Assembly (NCBI GenBank): GCA_022565335.1
Contig: JAIUMY010000020.1
Span: 1-41,173 of the forward strand
DNA length: 41,173 nt
Direction of reading: 5' to 3'
Origin: Opitutales bacterium
Lineage (GTDB): Bacteria > Verrucomicrobiota > Verrucomicrobiia > Opitutales > T3Sed10-336
Below are positions 1 to 38,796 of the stretch, one piece after another (position 1 is the first letter of the stretch; each line of letters starts with the position of its first letter). The notes beneath the pieces were generated by a model. The model was not told the origin of the DNA, did not search any database, and worked only from the letters and a program-made list of their open reading frames with translations. The translations under genes were made by a program, and so were the position numbers.

Positions 1-113
1 TCCGTAAAATGTAAGCGTTTTCGTTGCATACCCCTATAAAACCAAAATCCCCCTTACCGTCAACTACTAAGTCCAAAAATCTTAAAAATTGTTGGTGGGG
101 GGAGGATTGGGGT

Positions 114-29573: not shown

Positions 29574-32500
29574 TCAACGGCGGTCGGTAATACCGAGACG
29601 GAAGCTGCTGGAGTTCGCCCGGACTTCGGGCACATACATGGCATGACCGAGTACGGGCAAAGCGGTGAAACGACCCGGGGTTTCAGCGCGCAGGTTGTAG
29701 CGAATCTCGTGAAGACCATTGGGAAGGCGATCGATGAAGAAGGCCGTGTGTTTGTCCCGGATCTCCATGTGAGCAAAGGTGCGGTCGTCACCAAAGGAGC
29801 CATCGGCCCGTTGGGCCACGGCATAGGTGCGTTCCCCACTGCGCTGTTGTTCCGGTTCCAGACCGGCCGCCTTTTGGTCCTCAAAAACCAGGTATTCCAA
29901 ATCGACCGGGACCTCCAGAAGTAGTCTAACTTCCACGCGGTCACCAGCTTCAATCAGCTCATTCTCCTCAAGTTCCATCCATTCGCGCCGGAAGCTCCCA
30001 TCCAGGCGCTGGACGCGTCGTTTCACCCGATACTCCCGCTCGACGAAGACTTCGTTCCCCTTCGCTTCAATAGGGACTTCACGGCTGAAATACTCCACCC
30101 CCATCGAAGCATACAGACGACCCTCTCCACGGGTCCGGAAAGTTACCTCGTTTTCCCCGAAAAGCAGTTGGTCTCCGGGGATTTCCAGGGTGTGAACGCC
30201 CAAGGCCTCTTCGCCTTCCAGTCTGATGGAATCGCGAACTTCACCGTTTACCATCACCTCCACTTCCAGATCGGCATCAAGTTCGCCGGAAACTTGCAAA
30301 TAATCGTTCAGCGCCATAAGGGCCAGGGCAGAGTCCCGGGTGTTCGACCATTGGGCGCCCCGGCGTTGGCGCACCAGCCATTGCATGGCCTGGTCCGCAC
30401 GGGGGTGGTCCGGTTCAACGGCCAAAAAGGCGCGCAGCGCCCAGGCGGTGGACTCCACGCCATTGCGGTTCCAGCGAAGGGTCGGGCCTTCTTCGCCCCA
30501 GTGAACGCCCCATACCTCACCCGGTTCGCCATCCAGTAGAGCGGAACCTTCCCGAACTTCCCGAAGACCGTTTTCAAGGGTTCCGAGCAAGCTCTTCGCG
30601 CGGTCCGCATAGACCTCGTTTTCCTGCTCGCGATGATGGAAAACAAGAGTCAGTAAACTGCGCCCGTAGGAGCGCAAGAGGCCGCGGTTTTCCCATAAAT
30701 ATGCGGCATTGGCGGAGGACCGGTCATCCCAGGAAGCGTGCTCATTGAGGGCAACGGCATAAAGCATCCACGCCAGTAAGTCGGGACGGTTCCGATAATT
30801 GATCATTTCGCTTTGCAGCCAATCACTGGAGCGATTCAAGGCGGAGCGCGGCACTGAGAGGCCGTTTTGTTCAGCCAGGGCCAGGCCCATGGCCGCATAG
30901 GCGGTCATCCAGGCATTCGGGCGGGAATGACGCCACCAACCCCAGGACCCGTTTCCTTTTTGCAAATCAAGCAAACGGCGGAGACCTTGTGCGACCATTT
31001 CATCCAACTGCTCCAGCGTGTGTTCGCGTTCGGGTAAATGATCATCGCGGTAAGTTTGTTCGATCCCGCCAAAAATCCGATTGGCCACTAATCCGGGGTC
31101 CAGGTCCAAGTCAGCGAGGGTGGATTGAACGAGCAGGCTGGGCAAAAAGCGACTGAGTGTTTGCTCGGTGCAGCCATAGGGGAAATTGGCCAAATAGGGG
31201 AGGGCATCCAAGGCTGTTGAGGCCAGCGAGGCGGAGGTCCGGATTTCCAGCGAAGCACGGTCCGGATATTTTTGGGGTGGAAGATCAAAGGCGAGAACGG
31301 ATTCCGTAATCTCTTTTCCCGCTTGGGTAATGAGGCTGTCCCCGTGGTATTGAAGAATTCCATACTCGATAACCGGAAAAGTTGCCTCCATGGCATCACT
31401 GCCCGCCGCGGAGCGAAGTTCGCCGGTAACCTTCACCTCATCCAGGGGGCTTTCGGTATGGAAGCCGCGGTCAATGCGCACTTGTGCTCCCGGTGGAAGA
31501 GAATGTCTTTCAAAACCTTCCCGCTCCGGTACGAGATTTTCGGTACGGAGGTCCATGCCGGCCTCCAATTCCCCGGCGGTCAGGTTCTGGGCAACTCCCG
31601 AAAGAATGGCATAATCGCCCTCTACCAAAAAGCGTGGGGTCTGCACCCGCATCGCCACCGGAATGGAAGTAGTGATATGGGTGACTTCCTGGCCAACCTC
31701 GGTATTACGGGTGATTCCCCGGGCGATGATTTCCCATTGGGTCAGGTTTTCGGGAAAGGTTAGGGTAACCTTCCCGCGGCCATCTTCACCGGTCAAAATC
31801 CCCGGGGACCAGTGGGCCGTGGAGCGAAAGTCGCTTCGAACCAGAGCTTCCGCGCCGAGATCTTCCCCGCCAAAAGGCTCGGTAGGCGTATCGTCGGTTT
31901 CCCCGGCAAAGCCCGAACGATGTTGGCGGATTGACTCACCCCCTCTTCCTTCGCTATCAACCGATGGCAAGTGAATTTCGCGGATTGGCTCCATTCTCAA
32001 TCTATCGGGCTCTACCGATGGCGCGAAAGGATCTGCCGGTGCTGGACTGTGCATTTTTACGATCCTACTGTCCTCACGAGACGACCGAATAGAAATTCTT
32101 AAGTAACTGAAGCCTTGCCTTTGGGTAATGGTAAAGGAGTAATGCAGTCCTTGTTTTTGGGTGAGCAAATCCAGTAGTTGGAAAATGGTCATCTCGCGAA
32201 CCTGCAGGTGAAGAAGATCTCTTCCTCCGGTATGGTCGGTTACGCTAATGCCGACATTGGGGAAGGCCTCGCGAAAGTCTTCGCGTTGCCGGATTGCGGT
32301 AAAGGCATTCCGCAGGGTCATTCCTTCGATTCGGAAATCATCAATGCGCCATTGTTGCAGGAGTTCCAATACTTCGCTTTCATCGGCGGTCTCCGGAATT
32401 TGTATTCGTTTTCCCGATTCCTTTTCACGCCAAAAACTCTCCCACCCGTCCAAATCGGTTCCGTAATGTATTTCCAGTTGCTTCGGTATAGCGCTGTAGT

Positions 32501-35500
32501 CTGAGGACCCGTAGGAAGGGAGATGAACCCCTCCCGGTTGGGGATGGCGAAAATCGTGAAAGAACGCCCGAATATCTTTTTCCAAGCGCGGTTGAATCGC
32601 TTGAATCGCCCGGTCGCTGACCCCGAGGGCAAAATTGCCGGATACGGGTTGGCCCTGGTGATCCTTTACCGTAAAGCCGATTTCAGTTTCCTCGCCGGGC
32701 CGGAAATTTTCGGGCAGATCATCAAAGCTGATCTGCAAAAATTCCTCTACCGGAGGGATCTCCCATTCGATCTCGGCTTTTTGCAGAATGCGGTCGCGGA
32801 GCATTAACGCCCGCAAGTGAAGGTTCGGTACGGACTCATCCCCCAGAGGGATGTCAACCACCCGGACATTGCCTTTGAGTCGAAGAAGTTGGTGGTCCAA
32901 AAGATCCTTGCCAAAGGTGGTGAGCAGGACGAAATTATCCTGCTCATAGGGCGAAACGATTACCAAGCGGCCGGTTTCGCCTCGGCGGAAAGAATGGGAC
33001 TCGGAGTATATTTGCAAACGCCCCACCTCCACTGCAAGACGATGGGTTTCGCGGGTGGCAACCAGAATGGTATGCTCTTTGGTGATCTTCCCGTCTGGAC
33101 TGACGGTGCGGAGTCGGTAAAGGCCAGGCTCGGTTGGGCGAAAACGGTAACGGGCCACGCCCTGCTCGTCGGTAGTGAAAGAACTCTCCTCCAGCAGAGA
33201 CCATCGCCAGCCCCGGTCCACCACTTTGGTCTCACCGGAAATTGAATCCCGGCGAATTTGTTCGGCCTCTACCTGCCGGGCCACTTCAATGGTACCATCG
33301 GTAGGGAAGGGGCGGTTCAGGGCGTCAAAAGCCTCGATATCCAAAACCACTTCCGCTCCGGGACGGTACACTTCTCCGGGAGTTTCCAGATGCCACTGGA
33401 AAGGCTCCCGCGTGACCCGTAGGGCGCCTGAGCCTTCGGCCGTTCGGCGGGAGGCATCGGTGGCCGTGACTTCGACGAGGTATTCCCAACCATGAGGCAA
33501 ACCACTTCTGTTCCAGTCCCGCCTGAGGGTGGGACCATGCGTTGTGGTAAAAGAGATGCGGGCCATACCGTTTTCATCGGTAGTGGTCGTTCCTTCGTGG
33601 GCCAGACTTGGGTCAACCGGTTTGGGGCGGTTTGGCGGTCCGGTTTTCAACCAGGGATAAGGAGTGGAAGCCTGGCGGTGCCAGACAAAAGGCCGACGGG
33701 TGATGCGGTACTCAACCCCCGCTTCAGGGATTGCTCCGCCGGCATAGTAAGACACCGCAACTTTCACTTCGACTTCATCGCCGAACGAAAAAACTTTCGG
33801 TTTCCCGTTTTCCCGGGGTGGCTGTACCTTGACCTGGAATTCCGGCGTACGGAACTCCTCGACCCGAAAAAGAGACTTGCTGGCCGCACCGCTGCGCCAT
33901 TCCTCGTTTTGTCTTGAATAGCCTGGGAAGCGGGCTTCGAAAAGGCCCAGGGGAACATCTTCGGGTAAAACAAATTCCGCTACCCCCACGCCATAATCGT
34001 CGAGGGTAAAGGTGAGGGCCTTTACCAAATTGCGCCGGGGGTCCATAACTCGAACGCTTACCTCCTCCCCGGCCCGGGCATTATCCCAGCCCTCCTGGCC
34101 GGGCGTTCTCTCCACATAACGCAGGTGGACGGTATCGCCCGGACGATAAAGCGGGCGGTCAGTGGTAAGGTAAGGCCGATGAGGAGGGGGGCGGTTATCC
34201 CTGCGGGAATTTCGACCATCGAATAAAATCACCGGACCCTTGGGCGTTTCCGCCCAAAGCAATTCCACGCCGGAAGACCGTTTCAGGTGGGCTATCCCGT
34301 CTTCATCCAAATCCTCTTTTTCGCCGACCATAATCTCGTAGTGTCTTTCGCCTTGGCGTCTTGTCTGTTGGCGGTAGAAATTCATGACCGACCCGGACAA
34401 TGGGGCACCGGTTTCCATGTGGGCCACATACACCAAATTTCCCTCATTCGATTTCTGTTCGACAATGGCCGCATCGGTTACCGCAAAGAAGGCGCCGCCG
34501 TGGGCCACCTCTTCGCCGTCGGCCCGACCGGAAAGCTGTATCCAATAGGCTCCATGGGGGAGAGGGGCGCGGCGGTCGGTGAGTTCGGTTGGGTCGTGCG
34601 CTTGAGTTGGTTCCACCGAAAGGGACCAGGTATCGACAGGCTCTTGGTCAGCATAAACGGGGCTATTCTCGCCCCGTGGCACAATCTGGCGAACGCCTCG
34701 GAAAAACCAGTTTTCCGGGTCGGCAAAAGTTTCGGGACCATTTATGCGGTAAACCGAGAATTTCAGTTCATCGACATTACGGGTCCGCAGGGAGAGGGGA
34801 ATGATGGTTTCCGGGCGGATTGTGTCGGGCACGGAGACCCGTACCGTTTGTTCAAGCAAACGTTCACGGGCTCTTTGAATTCTTTGAAAGAAAAGGAGCC
34901 TTCCTTCGAATTCGGGTTCTTCCGCGACCAGATTAAAAACCTCCAACGCGGCAGCAAAATCCGGATAGGCCGAGCTGGTTTTTGCATACCAGTTCCCGTA
35001 TTTTTGCAAAAAATCTCCATGATTATAAACCAGTAACCCAAACCACGGATCCTCGGGGGAGGTTTCCTTTTGTAAGCGCGCATAACCCTGCAGGAACTCC
35101 TTATGCTTTTCGGCCTCGCCCCGGTGTCTGCGGAAATAATCTGAGGTCCGTTGCATGAGCAGGAAAAGGTCGATGATGAATTCCTCTTCGCGCGTCTCGG
35201 CCAGGGTGCGGGCCAGCGCGAGTTGCTCGGCTTCGAAAGCGGGGCGGCTCCAAAAACTGTTCCGGGCTGAATCCTCGGCGAGCAAAGGGGAGTCGGGATG
35301 GATGGTATGGATTACCATATCGCGAAATTCGCGGCGATTTTCGGGAGTGTCATCCTGCTGACTCCAGGCGTTGAAGGCGTCCCGGAAGTGGTTTCGGGCG
35401 GTCTGCGTCAGGCGGCCCCGATGGCTTTCCACTTGGATCGAGTATTCAGCCAGTGAATGGTGTGCCCGGGCCGCCCAGGGGTCGGGTTCATGGATGCTGG

Positions 35501-35792
35501 TGAGGCTCCGGAGATCACGGGTATAGGGGGCAAAAATGCTCTTGTCCCTCTGGGTGGTGCCGGCAAGAGCCCGCCAACGGGCATCGGCCAATAAAAAGGT
35601 CAGTTCCCGCCAGCGTTCCGATGATTTTTCCGGGTTTTCGCTGGCCAAAATCTCTTGTAGGATATCCGCCGCCTGAGCGAAGGCGGCATCTTCATAATAT
35701 TTCCTGGCTGCATTTTCATCCTCCGCGAAAAGAGAAAAGGTAGTAAGGCAGAAGGCAATACAGGCGAATCGCCGAAGGGTTTGGGATATCAT
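29574..35792 (-). CDS. Alpha-2-macroglobulin family protein with thioester motif
   Basis: ORF to 35885; likely start at 35792 gives MISQTLRRFACIAFCLTTFSLFA signal peptide; YLTTDRPLYRPGDTVHLRYVER; thioester PYGCTEQTLSRFLPSLL; C-terminal bacterial A2M features. Confidence 0.93.
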   Translation of the reverse strand: MISQTLRRFACIAFCLTTFSLFAEDENAARKYYEDAAFAQAADILQEILASENPEKSSERWRELTFLLADARWRALAGTTQRDKSIFAPYTRDLRSLTSIHEPDPWAARAHHSLAEYSIQVESHRGRLTQTARNHFRDAFNAWSQQDDTPENRREFRDMVIHTIHPDSPLLAEDSARNSFWSRPAFEAEQLALARTLAETREEEFIIDLFLLMQRTSDYFRRHRGEAEKHKEFLQGYARLQKETSPEDPWFGLLVYNHGDFLQKYGNWYAKTSSAYPDFAAALEVFNLVAEEPEFEGRLLFFQRIQRARERLLEQTVRVSVPDTIRPETIIPLSLRTRNVDELKFSVYRINGPETFADPENWFFRGVRQIVPRGENSPVYADQEPVDTWSLSVEPTQAHDPTELTDRRAPLPHGAYWIQLSGRADGEEVAHGGAFFAVTDAAIVEQKSNEGNLVYVAHMETGAPLSGSVMNFYRQQTRRQGERHYEIMVGEKEDLDEDGIAHLKRSSGVELLWAETPKGPVILFDGRNSRRDNRPPPHRPYLTTDRPLYRPGDTVHLRYVERTPGQEGWDNARAGEEVSVRVMDPRRNLVKALTFTLDDYGVGVAEFVLPEDVPLGLFEARFPGYSRQNEEWRSGAASKSLFRVEEFRTPEFQVKVQPPRENGKPKVFSFGDEVEVKVAVSYYAGGAIPEAGVEYRITRRPFVWHRQASTPYPWLKTGPPNRPKPVDPSLAHEGTTTTDENGMARISFTTTHGPTLRRDWNRSGLPHGWEYLVEVTATDASRRTAEGSGALRVTREPFQWHLETPGEVYRPGAEVVLDIEAFDALNRPFPTDGTIEVARQVEAEQIRRDSISGETKVVDRGWRWSLLEESSFTTDEQGVARYRFRPTEPGLYRLRTVSPDGKITKEHTILVATRETHRLAVEVGRLQIYSESHSFRRGETGRLVIVSPYEQDNFVLLTTFGKDLLDHQLLRLKGNVRVVDIPLGDESVPNLHLRALMLRDRILQKAEIEWEIPPVEEFLQISFDDLPENFRPGEETEIGFTVKDHQGQPVSGNFALGVSDRAIQAIQPRLEKDIRAFFHDFRHPQPGGVHLPSYGSSDYSAIPKQLEIHYGTDLDGWESFWREKESGKRIQIPETADESEVLELLQQWRIDDFRIEGMTLRNAFTAIRQREDFREAFPNVGISVTDHTGGRDLLHLQVREMTIFQLLDLLTQKQGLHYSFTITQRQGFSYLRISIRSSREDSRIVKMHSPAPADPFAPSVEPDRLRMEPIREIHLPSVDSEGRGGESIRQHRSGFAGETDDTPTEPFGGEDLGAEALVRSDFRSTAHWSPGILTGEDGRGKVTLTFPENLTQWEIIARGITRNTEVGQEVTHITTSIPVAMRVQTPRFLVEGDYAILSGVAQNLTAGELEAGMDLRTENLVPEREGFERHSLPPGAQVRIDRGFHTESPLDEVKVTGELRSAAGSDAMEATFPVIEYGILQYHGDSLITQAGKEITESVLAFDLPPQKYPDRASLEIRTSASLASTALDALPYLANFPYGCTEQTLSRFLPSLLVQSTLADLDLDPGLVANRIFGGIEQTYRDDHLPEREHTLEQLDEMVAQGLRRLLDLQKGNGSWGWWRHSRPNAWMTAYAAMGLALAEQNGLSVPRSALNRSSDWLQSEMINYRNRPDLLAWMLYAVALNEHASWDDRSSANAAYLWENRGLLRSYGRSLLTLVFHHREQENEVYADRAKSLLGTLENGLREVREGSALLDGEPGEVWGVHWGEEGPTLRWNRNGVESTAWALRAFLAVEPDHPRADQAMQWLVRQRRGAQWSNTRDSALALMALNDYLQVSGELDADLEVEVMVNGEVRDSIRLEGEEALGVHTLEIPGDQLLFGENEVTFRTRGEGRLYASMGVEYFSREVPIEAKGNEVFVEREYRVKRRVQRLDGSFRREWMELEENELIEAGDRVEVRLLLEVPVDLEYLVFEDQKAAGLEPEQQRSGERTYAVAQRADGSFGDDRTFAHMEIRDKHTAFFIDRLPNGLHEIRYNLRAETPGRFTALPVLGHAMYVPEVRANSSSFRLGITDRR

Positions 35793-36043
35793 AGCTGTTC
35801 GGGGGGTGAGGGTAACTTTTTGCGACTCGTAAAGGTATACCGCATCGCTTTTCTTAATGCGAGGATTCTCTAAAAAAAATTCCAACAGGAAAATGGATAA
35901 GATGAATCCGGGCGGTTGTTGGAGTTTGAAACCTGGCCGCGTAATGGGGTGAATTCTCCCTGAAATGGGCAGTTCCGGAGAGACTGCTCACCCTCGTTTG
36001 ATGGGCCTCCCGGCTTTTATCCTTTCCCTCTATGGTTGGTCTT

Positions 36044-37834
36044 TTAGTCGTCGCTGCCGAGGGTTTTGATAGCGGAGGCGAGGGGGTGGTCCAAATCGAT
36101 GCGGAGACGATGGTCGGAGTTATATTGGAGCAATAATTCCTCCTGTTCGCTTTTAAGTTCTTGCAGCGATTTTTGGATACGCCGGGGAGCAAGCAAAAGA
36201 GAGTGGAGCAGAGTGATGTACAAAAGCATCGGGAGAAGAGCCAGGAAGAAGGTGGTCAGGAAAGTGGAGCCCGCTCCGGAGGGAAAGGTGGCCCAGGATC
36301 CCTGTTCGTTTCCCTGCAGCAAATTGCTGACGGCGTGGAAATGATCGGCATAGAGCCCTACCAGAGGCCAAACAAAAATACCCCAAAAGATAAAGAACCC
36401 AAGCAATCCGGACATCCCGGCCAGAATTCTTCCGGGTTGGTGGCGGGCGAGATTCTTTTCCATGACTTGTTCGTTTTGACGCAGGAATGGTTTTAAGCCG
36501 ACGATGCTTACGCTTGGTTTTTCCGGTTTGCCATCGGTGAGAGTCCTTAACGGTTGCCCCAAATCCAAGGCTAGCGCGCGGTCCAGTTGGTTGAGAGCGG
36601 GGGCGAGTTCTTCCGATACCTCCTGGTGCAAACTATCGCTGGGATCGCGTGAGACAAGGCCTTTCCAGGCTTTTAGCGAGGCCGTGTTGCGGATTGCCTG
36701 ATAGGCCGAAGCAGCCGCGGAAGGCAGGCTGCCCATAAACAGAAAAGGGATTTTGGCCAAGGCTCCACGCAGGATGGTGGCAACCCCTAAAAGTCCTTTC
36801 CAGGGGAAGAGAAAGCCGGGACTGTGCGCCCAAAACCTGGAAAGGACCTGCATTTGGTAGTGGTAGCGAAAAGCCGCATCCTGGGTGAACAGAAGACGGG
36901 ACAGATTTTGTGGCAGTTCAGCCTCGCGCGAAGTCAGCTTTTCGATGAGCGGCAAAGCATGGGGAAACTGGGTGCCCCAATCACGCACCCAGGCTTTTTG
37001 GAAATTCTCCCATCGACCGGTTCTTTCGGGGGCGAGAATCGCTTCCTCGGAAAGATTGGCCAAGTGCGCGGCAAGGGTTTTCTGTATGGCTTGGGTGGTT
37101 TCGGCAAGAACCTTTTCCTTTGGCCTTTCAGCTTTGCTCAGAGCCCAGTCCGCGGCAAGGACTGGTGGAAGGACTTGGGCGGGGTCGTGCGTTTCGTGGA
37201 GACTTTCCAGCAGGTGGGTCACCAGCTCTTGTTGCTCCTCGGTCCGCAGGAGATTGAGTACTGGCAGCACCCAGCCTCCACGGGCATCCTGCAGATATTC
37301 GCTCCAATCCCTGTCTTCCACCTGATTGGCCGGAACAACGAGGACTTTTACCGCAGCCCGCTGTAAAATCCTCCGGGCGGAGAGCGCGCGGGCGGCCTGG
37401 AGCTCGTTTGAACCGGGTACATCGGCCAAGCGTATTTCCTTATCCGGAATAATATTGGTCAGAGGGGCGGTTTCGACGAACGATTCGGTTTTCGGATCGA
37501 AGCTGGAAGGAGGGGTGTGGGCATACCAGGTAAGGCGATCCGTTCCCGCAGCGGAAGCCAGCCCGGACGGGGGGTGGGGACTCTCGCCGGAAAGACCTGC
37601 CAGGGTTTGCGTGAGAAGGGTTTTTCCGCCGTTCTTGGGCCCGACAATGGCGATTTCAATAGAATTTGCGGTGACGCTTCCGGAAAGATTTTCCCATTCC
37701 CGGGCGAAAGTCTTCAGGCGGTTTTGCCAATACCCTTTTTTATTCCATTCCGAGGGCAAACTCTCCAGCGCTTTTTCCCAGAGCAGAAAGCGTTGCGGTA
37801 AAGGCGGAGCGGATGGAGGGGCAGGGTCAGGCAT
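36044..37834 (-). CDS. Membrane-anchored P-loop NTPase/GTPase-like protein
   Basis: Walker A IVGPKNGGKT (37619..37642), DVPG switch-like motif, C-terminal hydrophobic segments ILAGMSGLLGFFIFWGIFVWPLVGLY and FLTTFFLALLPMLLYITLLHSLLL. Confidence 0.75.
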   Translation of the reverse strand: MPDPAPPSAPPLPQRFLLWEKALESLPSEWNKKGYWQNRLKTFAREWENLSGSVTANSIEIAIVGPKNGGKTLLTQTLAGLSGESPHPPSGLASAAGTDRLTWYAHTPPSSFDPKTESFVETAPLTNIIPDKEIRLADVPGSNELQAARALSARRILQRAAVKVLVVPANQVEDRDWSEYLQDARGGWVLPVLNLLRTEEQQELVTHLLESLHETHDPAQVLPPVLAADWALSKAERPKEKVLAETTQAIQKTLAAHLANLSEEAILAPERTGRWENFQKAWVRDWGTQFPHALPLIEKLTSREAELPQNLSRLLFTQDAAFRYHYQMQVLSRFWAHSPGFLFPWKGLLGVATILRGALAKIPFLFMGSLPSAAASAYQAIRNTASLKAWKGLVSRDPSDSLHQEVSEELAPALNQLDRALALDLGQPLRTLTDGKPEKPSVSIVGLKPFLRQNEQVMEKNLARHQPGRILAGMSGLLGFFIFWGIFVWPLVGLYADHFHAVSNLLQGNEQGSWATFPSGAGSTFLTTFFLALLPMLLYITLLHSLLLAPRRIQKSLQELKSEQEELLLQYNSDHRLRIDLDHPLASAIKTLGSDD

Positions 37835-38332
37835 TTAAGGAACAGCAAAATGGGCTTCGGTCCATAGGTCAAACTCCCGTTCCTGGCGGAATCCCCCGGC
37901 GGCCCAAGAGGCCAGAAAGGGCTCGGAAGACCCGTCGGGGAAAAAACGAACGCGTTCGATCGCACGGGTATCGACCAATTGACCCCGAATAAGAATCATT
38001 TCCGTGCGGGCGCGGCGTTGCTGAAATTCAAATTCCACAGGGAAGTCCTCCGTTCCGACGGGACCAAATTCATGGGTGCCGGAGGGGTTTCTAACGATGA
38101 ATTTGCGGTTTTCTGAATCAAAGCGCAGGTGGGTTTCCTCATTGTTAGCGAGGGCGCGGTAGCGGGCCTCCATGATGGCGTTTTGCAAATGGGTTTCAAC
38201 GCTTCGGTCTTCGTCGAAGTCGATTATCACGTTAATAGCCACGATGGACAGACCACCCACCAAGGCGATAAGCGCCATCACCAGAATCAGCTCCAGCAGC
38301 GTAAAACCCGCGTGTAAACTGCGCAAAATCAC
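37835..38332 (-). CDS. GspH-like type II pseudopilin
   Basis: HAGFTLLELILVMALIALVGGLSIVAIN; adjacent to gspG. Confidence 0.85.
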   Translation of the reverse strand: MILRSLHAGFTLLELILVMALIALVGGLSIVAINVIIDFDEDRSVETHLQNAIMEARYRALANNEETHLRFDSENRKFIVRNPSGTHEFGPVGTEDFPVEFEFQQRRARTEMILIRGQLVDTRAIERVRFFPDGSSEPFLASWAAGGFRQEREFDLWTEAHFAVP

Positions 38333-38796
38333 CAGTTGCCGATGTTTTGGTCGCTATCCACCCCATCCGGGCCGAAGGAGAAAACGTCGGGGCCGGTGTC
38401 ATTCCGCTGGCCGGGATAACGGTATTGGTATTCATTGCCCCAAGGGTCCTTGGGGACCGAATTGGCATTCAGGTAAGGCCCCCGCCAATTGCCGGACCCT
38501 CCCGTGGGATCGGTGATTAAAGCCTGCAGTCCCTCCTCGGTCGTCGGGTAACGGCCCATGTGAATGCGAAAGGTGGTCAGGGGCGCTTGAATAGAGTCTT
38601 CCACCCAGATCTCCGCAGCTTGCTCACTGGAGCCTTCGAAAATGCGGGTTACCTGAGTAATGCCCAGTGATATGATAAGGACGATGATGGCCAGGACCAC
38701 GACTACCTCCAGGATGGTAAAGGCGCTTCGGTGCGTTGTTTTGCGGTCGAGGGGGTAGCTCTGAAAAGCCGAATGGGGAGATAGCGATAGATTCAT
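38329..38796 (-). CDS. gspG: Type II secretion major pseudopilin GspG
   Basis: AFTILEVVVVLAIIVLI...GRYPTTEEGLQALITDPTGGSGNWRGPYLNANSVPKDPWGNEYQYRYPGQ. Confidence 0.95.
   Translation of the reverse strand: MNLSLSPHSAFQSYPLDRKTTHRSAFTILEVVVVLAIIVLIISLGITQVTRIFEGSSEQAAEIWVEDSIQAPLTTFRIHMGRYPTTEEGLQALITDPTGGSGNWRGPYLNANSVPKDPWGNEYQYRYPGQRNDTGPDVFSFGPDGVDSDQNIGNW

Follow-up and report, generated by a model that had tools for sequence, protein, structure and literature searches.

A secretin-type domain in the bait region of a bacterial alpha-2-macroglobulin from Opitutales

Type I bacterial alpha-2-macroglobulins (A2Ms), which have a thioester, such as ECAM/YfhM of Escherichia coli and SaA2M of Salmonella, share with the protein described here the MG2, BRD, and PF00207 domains, a thioester domain (TED) with a CxEQ motif, a bMG10 domain, and a bait located before PF00207. 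Their bait is disordered (PMC4498604), whereas the present A2M has a longer bait containing a folded (predicted) secretin-type domain and, by eye, no evident lipobox. In animal A2M, the strand that follows the bait (R732 and F735) threads a channel, and retraction of this plug after cleavage triggers the change; in the human protein, extension of the bait by 10 to 20 unstructured residues favors collapse (PMC9352918). For ECAM, another model, based on competition, has been put forward (PMC4498604). As for the N0 fold, the paper on VirB7 of Xanthomonas states that it was at that time confined to a limited range of transport systems (PMC3093366). In VirB7, an N0 domain is grafted on a small lipoprotein, which sets a precedent for N0 in a nonsecretin; unlike A2M, however, VirB7 is part of a transport machine.

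The A2M gene and its bait region

The window, i.e., the whole 41,173-nucleotide stretch of contig JAIUMY010000020.1 that was analyzed, contains a minus-strand open reading frame of 2103 aa at positions 29574 to 35885. Its features are listed in Table 1. The frame encodes a type I bacterial A2M with a thioester: MG2, TED, PF00207, and bMG10 score above the Pfam cut-offs, and A2M_BRD falls marginally below. An NCBIfam search of this protein returned zero matches. By Pfam, the C-terminal secretin domain PF00263 is absent from the A2M; it occurs at four other loci of the same genome.

Table 1. Features of the A2M gene in the window
Feature	Position	Strand	Basis
A2M gene from likely ATG start at 35792	29574..35792	-	ORF; Pfam MG2, BRD, A2M, TED, bMG10; frame open up to 35885
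Probable Sec signal peptide MISQTLRRFACIAFCLTTFSLFA, without evident lipobox	35724..35792	-	By eye from sequence
MG2 domain	33906..34172	-	Pfam MG2, residues 572-660, E 5.6e-17
A2M_BRD match (MG domains before bait)	32604..33017	-	Pfam, residues 957-1094, E 6.6e-4, slightly below cut-off
Bait linker 1, residues 1113-1164	32394..32549	-	Alignment with orthologues and secretins
STN/N0-like domain, secretin type, residues 1165-1270	32076..32393	-	HMM, hhalign, PDB profile search, predicted fold
Bait linker 2, residues 1271-1346	31848..32075	-	Alignment
APADPFAP motif, residues 1282-1289	32019..32042	-	Same in congener's A2M and congener's own secretin linker
VRSDF, probable counterpart of alpha'NT plug (human R732, F735)	31827..31841	-	Kept in orthologues; equivalence inferred from VRxxF pattern
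A2M domain PF00207	31560..31820	-	Pfam, residues 1356-1442, E 7e-12
Thioester domain (TED) match	30810..31211	-	Pfam, residues 1559-1692, E 1.6e-16
Thioester motif GCTEQ, residues 1571-1575	31161..31175	-	Sequence
bMG10	29625..30029	-	Pfam, residues 1953-2087, E 8.5e-25

An earlier note on this DNA had quoted a peptide as a centrally placed, STN/secretin-like insert of the A2M. The peptide is indeed encoded in the A2M frame (residues 1182 to 1269, minus strand), and the insert does lie within the A2M, but "central" is too loose a wording. Residues ~1165 to 1270 lie between A2M_BRD and PF00207, so that the site is exactly the bait region, which the insert replaces or interrupts, a point overlooked in that note. 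The bait stretch before PF00207 is present, with two flexible-looking linkers and a folded (predicted) domain between them. In ten orthologues from the order's other families (27 to 44% identical to the query), this site is occupied by a low-complexity bait. A matching insert is found in the A2M (L003) of the sole other genome of the genus, which is 49% identical overall. An assembly chimera was ruled out because the arrangement recurs in this second genome, on a contig unrelated to that of the window.

Secretin homology of the inserted domain

Direct scoring against Pfam STN (PF07660), the family named earlier for an HHpred check, gave 14.4 bits for the insert, below the cut-off of 28.4, and is by itself insufficient for an STN assignment; sister secretin domains do pass, including a member of the secretin N-domain family in genome G055. 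In hhalign, the insert aligned to the N-terminal domain of a PilQ-like secretin of ~900 aa that occurs across the order, with a probability of 96.7% and a score of 59.3; 400 column shuffles peaked at 21.0, and the highest score among 69 further windows from the same two A2Ms was 16.6. An HMM built from 30 secretin domains scored the insert at 16.9 bits and the congener's copy at 14.9 bits (best of 10,000 shuffles, 11.0), and among the A2Ms tested it matched only the two insert-bearing ones, at the insert. Furthermore, a domain profile (A5) recovered the window's A2M at E 5.4e-24 and that of the congener at 2.0e-23, both sequences being included in the profile, and matched the PF07660 domain of an own-genome secretin (G000:C10) at E 9e-6. 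When A5 was searched against PDB sequences, the four best matches were all PilQ chains, the first at E 0.0075. Identity between the insert and individual secretin domains is 12 to 24%, with 16% to the own-genome domain.

An AlphaFold model computed from a 30-row alignment with secretin sequences (pLDDT 73.7) displayed the element order b-a-(a)-b-b-a-b-b; as the alignment itself includes secretin rows, the model does not support the secretin hypothesis independently. Its best PDB match was PilQ (prob 0.98; weak E of 0.03; query TM-score 0.41), and the next matches were a putative anti-sigma factor and VgrG, the latter being among the proteins said to share the N0 topology (PMC3093366). From the two A2M sequences alone, the element order was the same at a pLDDT of 49.5, too poor to count. 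The predicted beta-alpha-beta-beta-alpha-beta-beta fold of the insert thus has moderate support, and the structure check suggested in the earlier note came out with the STN/N0-type order and PilQ as the closest structure.

Altogether, residues ~1165 to 1270 form an STN/N0-type domain of the secretin kind and no MG domain, and the original STN/secretin-like reading is borne out by hhalign with its controls, the PDB profile search, and the predicted fold. That the segment could be an ordinary MG domain or a disordered linker that merely resembles STN fits its subthreshold direct Pfam score; nonetheless, the HMM shuffles, the hhalign controls, the best match to PilQ by both PDB sequence profile and fold, and the absence of the segment from orthologues outside the genus make this very improbable, and the shuffle and window controls refute it for practical purposes. 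The likeness to PilQ-type secretins (the own-genome protein and Neisseria PilQ, 4ar0/4av2) covers the profile, the strand/helix order, the DPFA tail, and the preceding segment, which in the alignment resembles a W-R segment in bait linker 1. Unlike in these secretins, no further secretin domains stand behind the insert, and the host protein is an A2M.

Distribution, relatives, and genomic neighborhood

A2Ms were surveyed in the order and in many phyla (103 proteins), and the bait stretch was readable in 98, a set that includes a few genomes entered twice. The measured bait interval, mostly low-complexity, spans 105 to 192 aa in 95 of the 98; the three exceptions are the window's A2M (278 aa), L003 of the congener (262 aa), and L171 (270 aa). 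Only the window's A2M and its congener's homologue carry a secretin-type domain in the bait (2/98). Searches with an insert-region profile found the insert only in these same two A2Ms, both among 373 genomes of the order and among 384 genomes class-wide. When 241 genomes of the phylum were searched with the domain profile, the matches listed (to ~1e-11) included no frame of >1600 aa besides that of the window, and matches weaker than this may include further cases. The insertion is restricted to one genus among the sampled genomes. The earlier remark that no standard bacterial A2M architecture has this insert therefore holds in the present survey, across the 98 baits and the order, class, and phylum searches, and searches of the open-licence literature yielded no A2M described as having an STN or N0 domain.

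The bait of L171 (Chitinophagales, JAHDIA010000018.1) contains a CarboxypepD_reg-like domain and, after it, a collagen-like stretch rich in Met and Gly, and is a second instance of a folded domain at the A2M bait site, in another phylum. It resembles the window's A2M in having a folded domain inside the bait; it differs in that the domain is of the beta-sandwich type and that its match (E 1.7e-5; 25.2 bits) lies under the Pfam cut-off of 32.2. TonB plug domains are possible in Bacteroidota A2Ms.

Outside A2Ms, the order-wide insert-profile search gave a single match, in the N-terminal portion of a secretin of 682 aa (G097). The window's genome has the same domain in a secretin of ~900 aa (G000:C12, 22625 to 23002), and it was found in 80 of 103 genomes from the order. 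This secretin has a TPR-plus-secretin layout resembling that of Akkermansia Amuc_1098/PilQ, which, judging from its length and layout, is probably of the same kind and is the most abundant outer-membrane protein of its organism (PMC4960237). DPFA occurs in the post-domain linker of 18 of 30 secretins and in 2 of 98 A2M baits, namely, the two with the insert, and both insert-bearing A2Ms share the 8-mer APADPFAP, letter for letter, with the congener's own secretin. This secretin linker motif came into the A2M together with the domain.

Three small secreted proteins (L253, L254, and L256; open frames of ~180 to 210 aa) contain little beyond an STN-like domain, and two of them end in DPF(R); standalone secreted STN-like proteins with a DPF tail occur in the same family. 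Elsewhere in the class, a protein of ~1500 aa (L257, G499:C151) has two STN-like domains near its C terminus, DPFA after the second, and a hydrophobic C-terminal end. The donor of the domain could be either a secretin or a standalone or two-copy STN-like relative, because both carry the domain and a DPF tail, and identities of 12 to 24% are too low for a choice between them.

Between the two congeneric genomes, the window's A2M is 49% identical, while the other proteins compared are 61 to 98% identical: the paralogous A2M 89%, the secretin 85%, GspH 93%, the GTPase 61%, and the N-domain of the secretin, nearly unchanged, 98% over 126 aa. Within the A2M, the insert is the least conserved part (20%, versus 62 to 68% for the C-terminal half). 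Despite 20% identity, both copies retain the outline of the fold, its length, and its hydrophobic pattern, and this persistence through divergence suggests selection. The two congeners also differ in where the A2M gene is located. Thus, since its identity is low and its locus differs, it is a fast-evolving gene that has been moved or exchanged. The congener's copy adjoins a REP/IS200-like transposase gene in G001, and an 87-base stretch at window positions 1 to 86 is 85% identical to sequence overlapping the start of that transposase gene. Both genomes also have a second A2M (L047 and L048; G000:C1 and G001:C16) of 2001 aa with an ordinary bait and without the GCxEQ motif.

Upstream of the A2M gene, positions 36044 to 38796 contain the GspG and GspH pseudopilin genes and then a GTPase-like gene that matches the slr1306 family only weakly. 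A tie of the A2M to a secretion system through these genes was considered and rejected because the SiR-GspG-GspH-GTPase block is conserved in G001 without an adjoining A2M. Comparison of the loci of both congeners revealed no conserved partner gene beside the A2M.

Proposed role of the domain

GCTEQ and VRxDF are intact in the window's A2M. Because both the thioester and the plug residues are kept, the protein is probably still a working bait-triggered trap. We lean toward the reading that this putative trap is a type I A2M with a secretin N-domain captured in its bait, where the domain would serve as a compact spacer and bias triggering. A PilQ-type secretin N-terminal domain (STN/N0-like, ~100 aa, with a DPFAP tail) would have been captured into the bait of a periplasmic or secreted A2M, and proteases would cut the flexible linkers on both sides of it. 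Being compact, the domain would add ~100 residues with little end-to-end length and the native state would survive, while an unstructured chain of equal addition would be expected to collapse native A2M. A cut in linker 2 would free the plug (VRSDF), which would retract through the MG2-MG3 channel and fire the trap. After a cut in linker 1 alone, the domain would stay on the plug strand and hinder retraction until removed. If the domain is unable to pass the channel, an argument that derives from animal A2M, linker 2 cuts should fire the trap and linker 1 cuts should do so slowly or not at all. The domain would in this way gate the response to bait cleavage. It may also have retained a binding face from its origin in secretins and use it to anchor the bait to a partner in the envelope.

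Several other roles were weighed. The domain may be a gate or sensor that, through docking to an envelope partner or jamming of the plug, decides the time and place at which bait cleavage fires the thioester trap, so that triggering is conditional rather than a response to any bait cut; this is possible but doubtful. Docking could also be the main purpose, with the domain tethering the A2M to a partner of the secretin, such as the pilus or the secretion machinery, or to the secretin ring, which would keep the trap ready at sites of possible protease entry into the periplasm. The cell's own secretin carries a homologous domain, its Akkermansia counterpart is highly abundant, as noted above, and the main role known for N0/STN domains is that of interaction modules in outer-membrane transport systems (PMC3093366). 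However, a shared binding face is unlikely to have been kept, since the A2M copies diverged between the two species while the secretin domain hardly changed, and no conserved partner gene adjoins the A2M; we regard docking of this kind as unlikely.

The homology and the linker motif in common with the cell's own secretin family would also suit a decoy, i.e., a bait imitating the periplasmic part of an abundant secretin so that secretin-directed proteases spring the trap. Nonetheless, 16% identity to the own-genome domain makes for poor mimicry, and we know of no protease directed at secretins in this way, which leaves the decoy quite improbable. A neutral passenger, that is, a secretin fragment retained for spacing at most in a bait that tolerates insertions, draws on the very divergence that counts against the favored reading: the domain is the fastest-evolving part of the A2M, occurs in one genus only, and, as its least-conserved segment, also fits a tolerated passenger. 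On the other hand, two highly diverged copies that keep their fold outline, length, and hydrophobic pattern are unexpected for a useless insert, and bait lengthening is harmful in human A2M (PMC9352918); a mere passenger is accordingly not likely.

What is new here is a secretin-type domain located exactly at the bait region of an A2M. Bait regions have been taken as disordered, and trigger models assume a floppy strand that is threaded or released. An A2M that naturally has a folded (predicted) domain in its bait strand allows the plug-in-channel model to be put to a direct test. Those who proposed the model call for a full channel block (PMC9352918), and a cut beyond the folded domain would be such a test. 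These data also indicate that secretin N-domains are transferred as modules to proteins that do not belong to transport machines.
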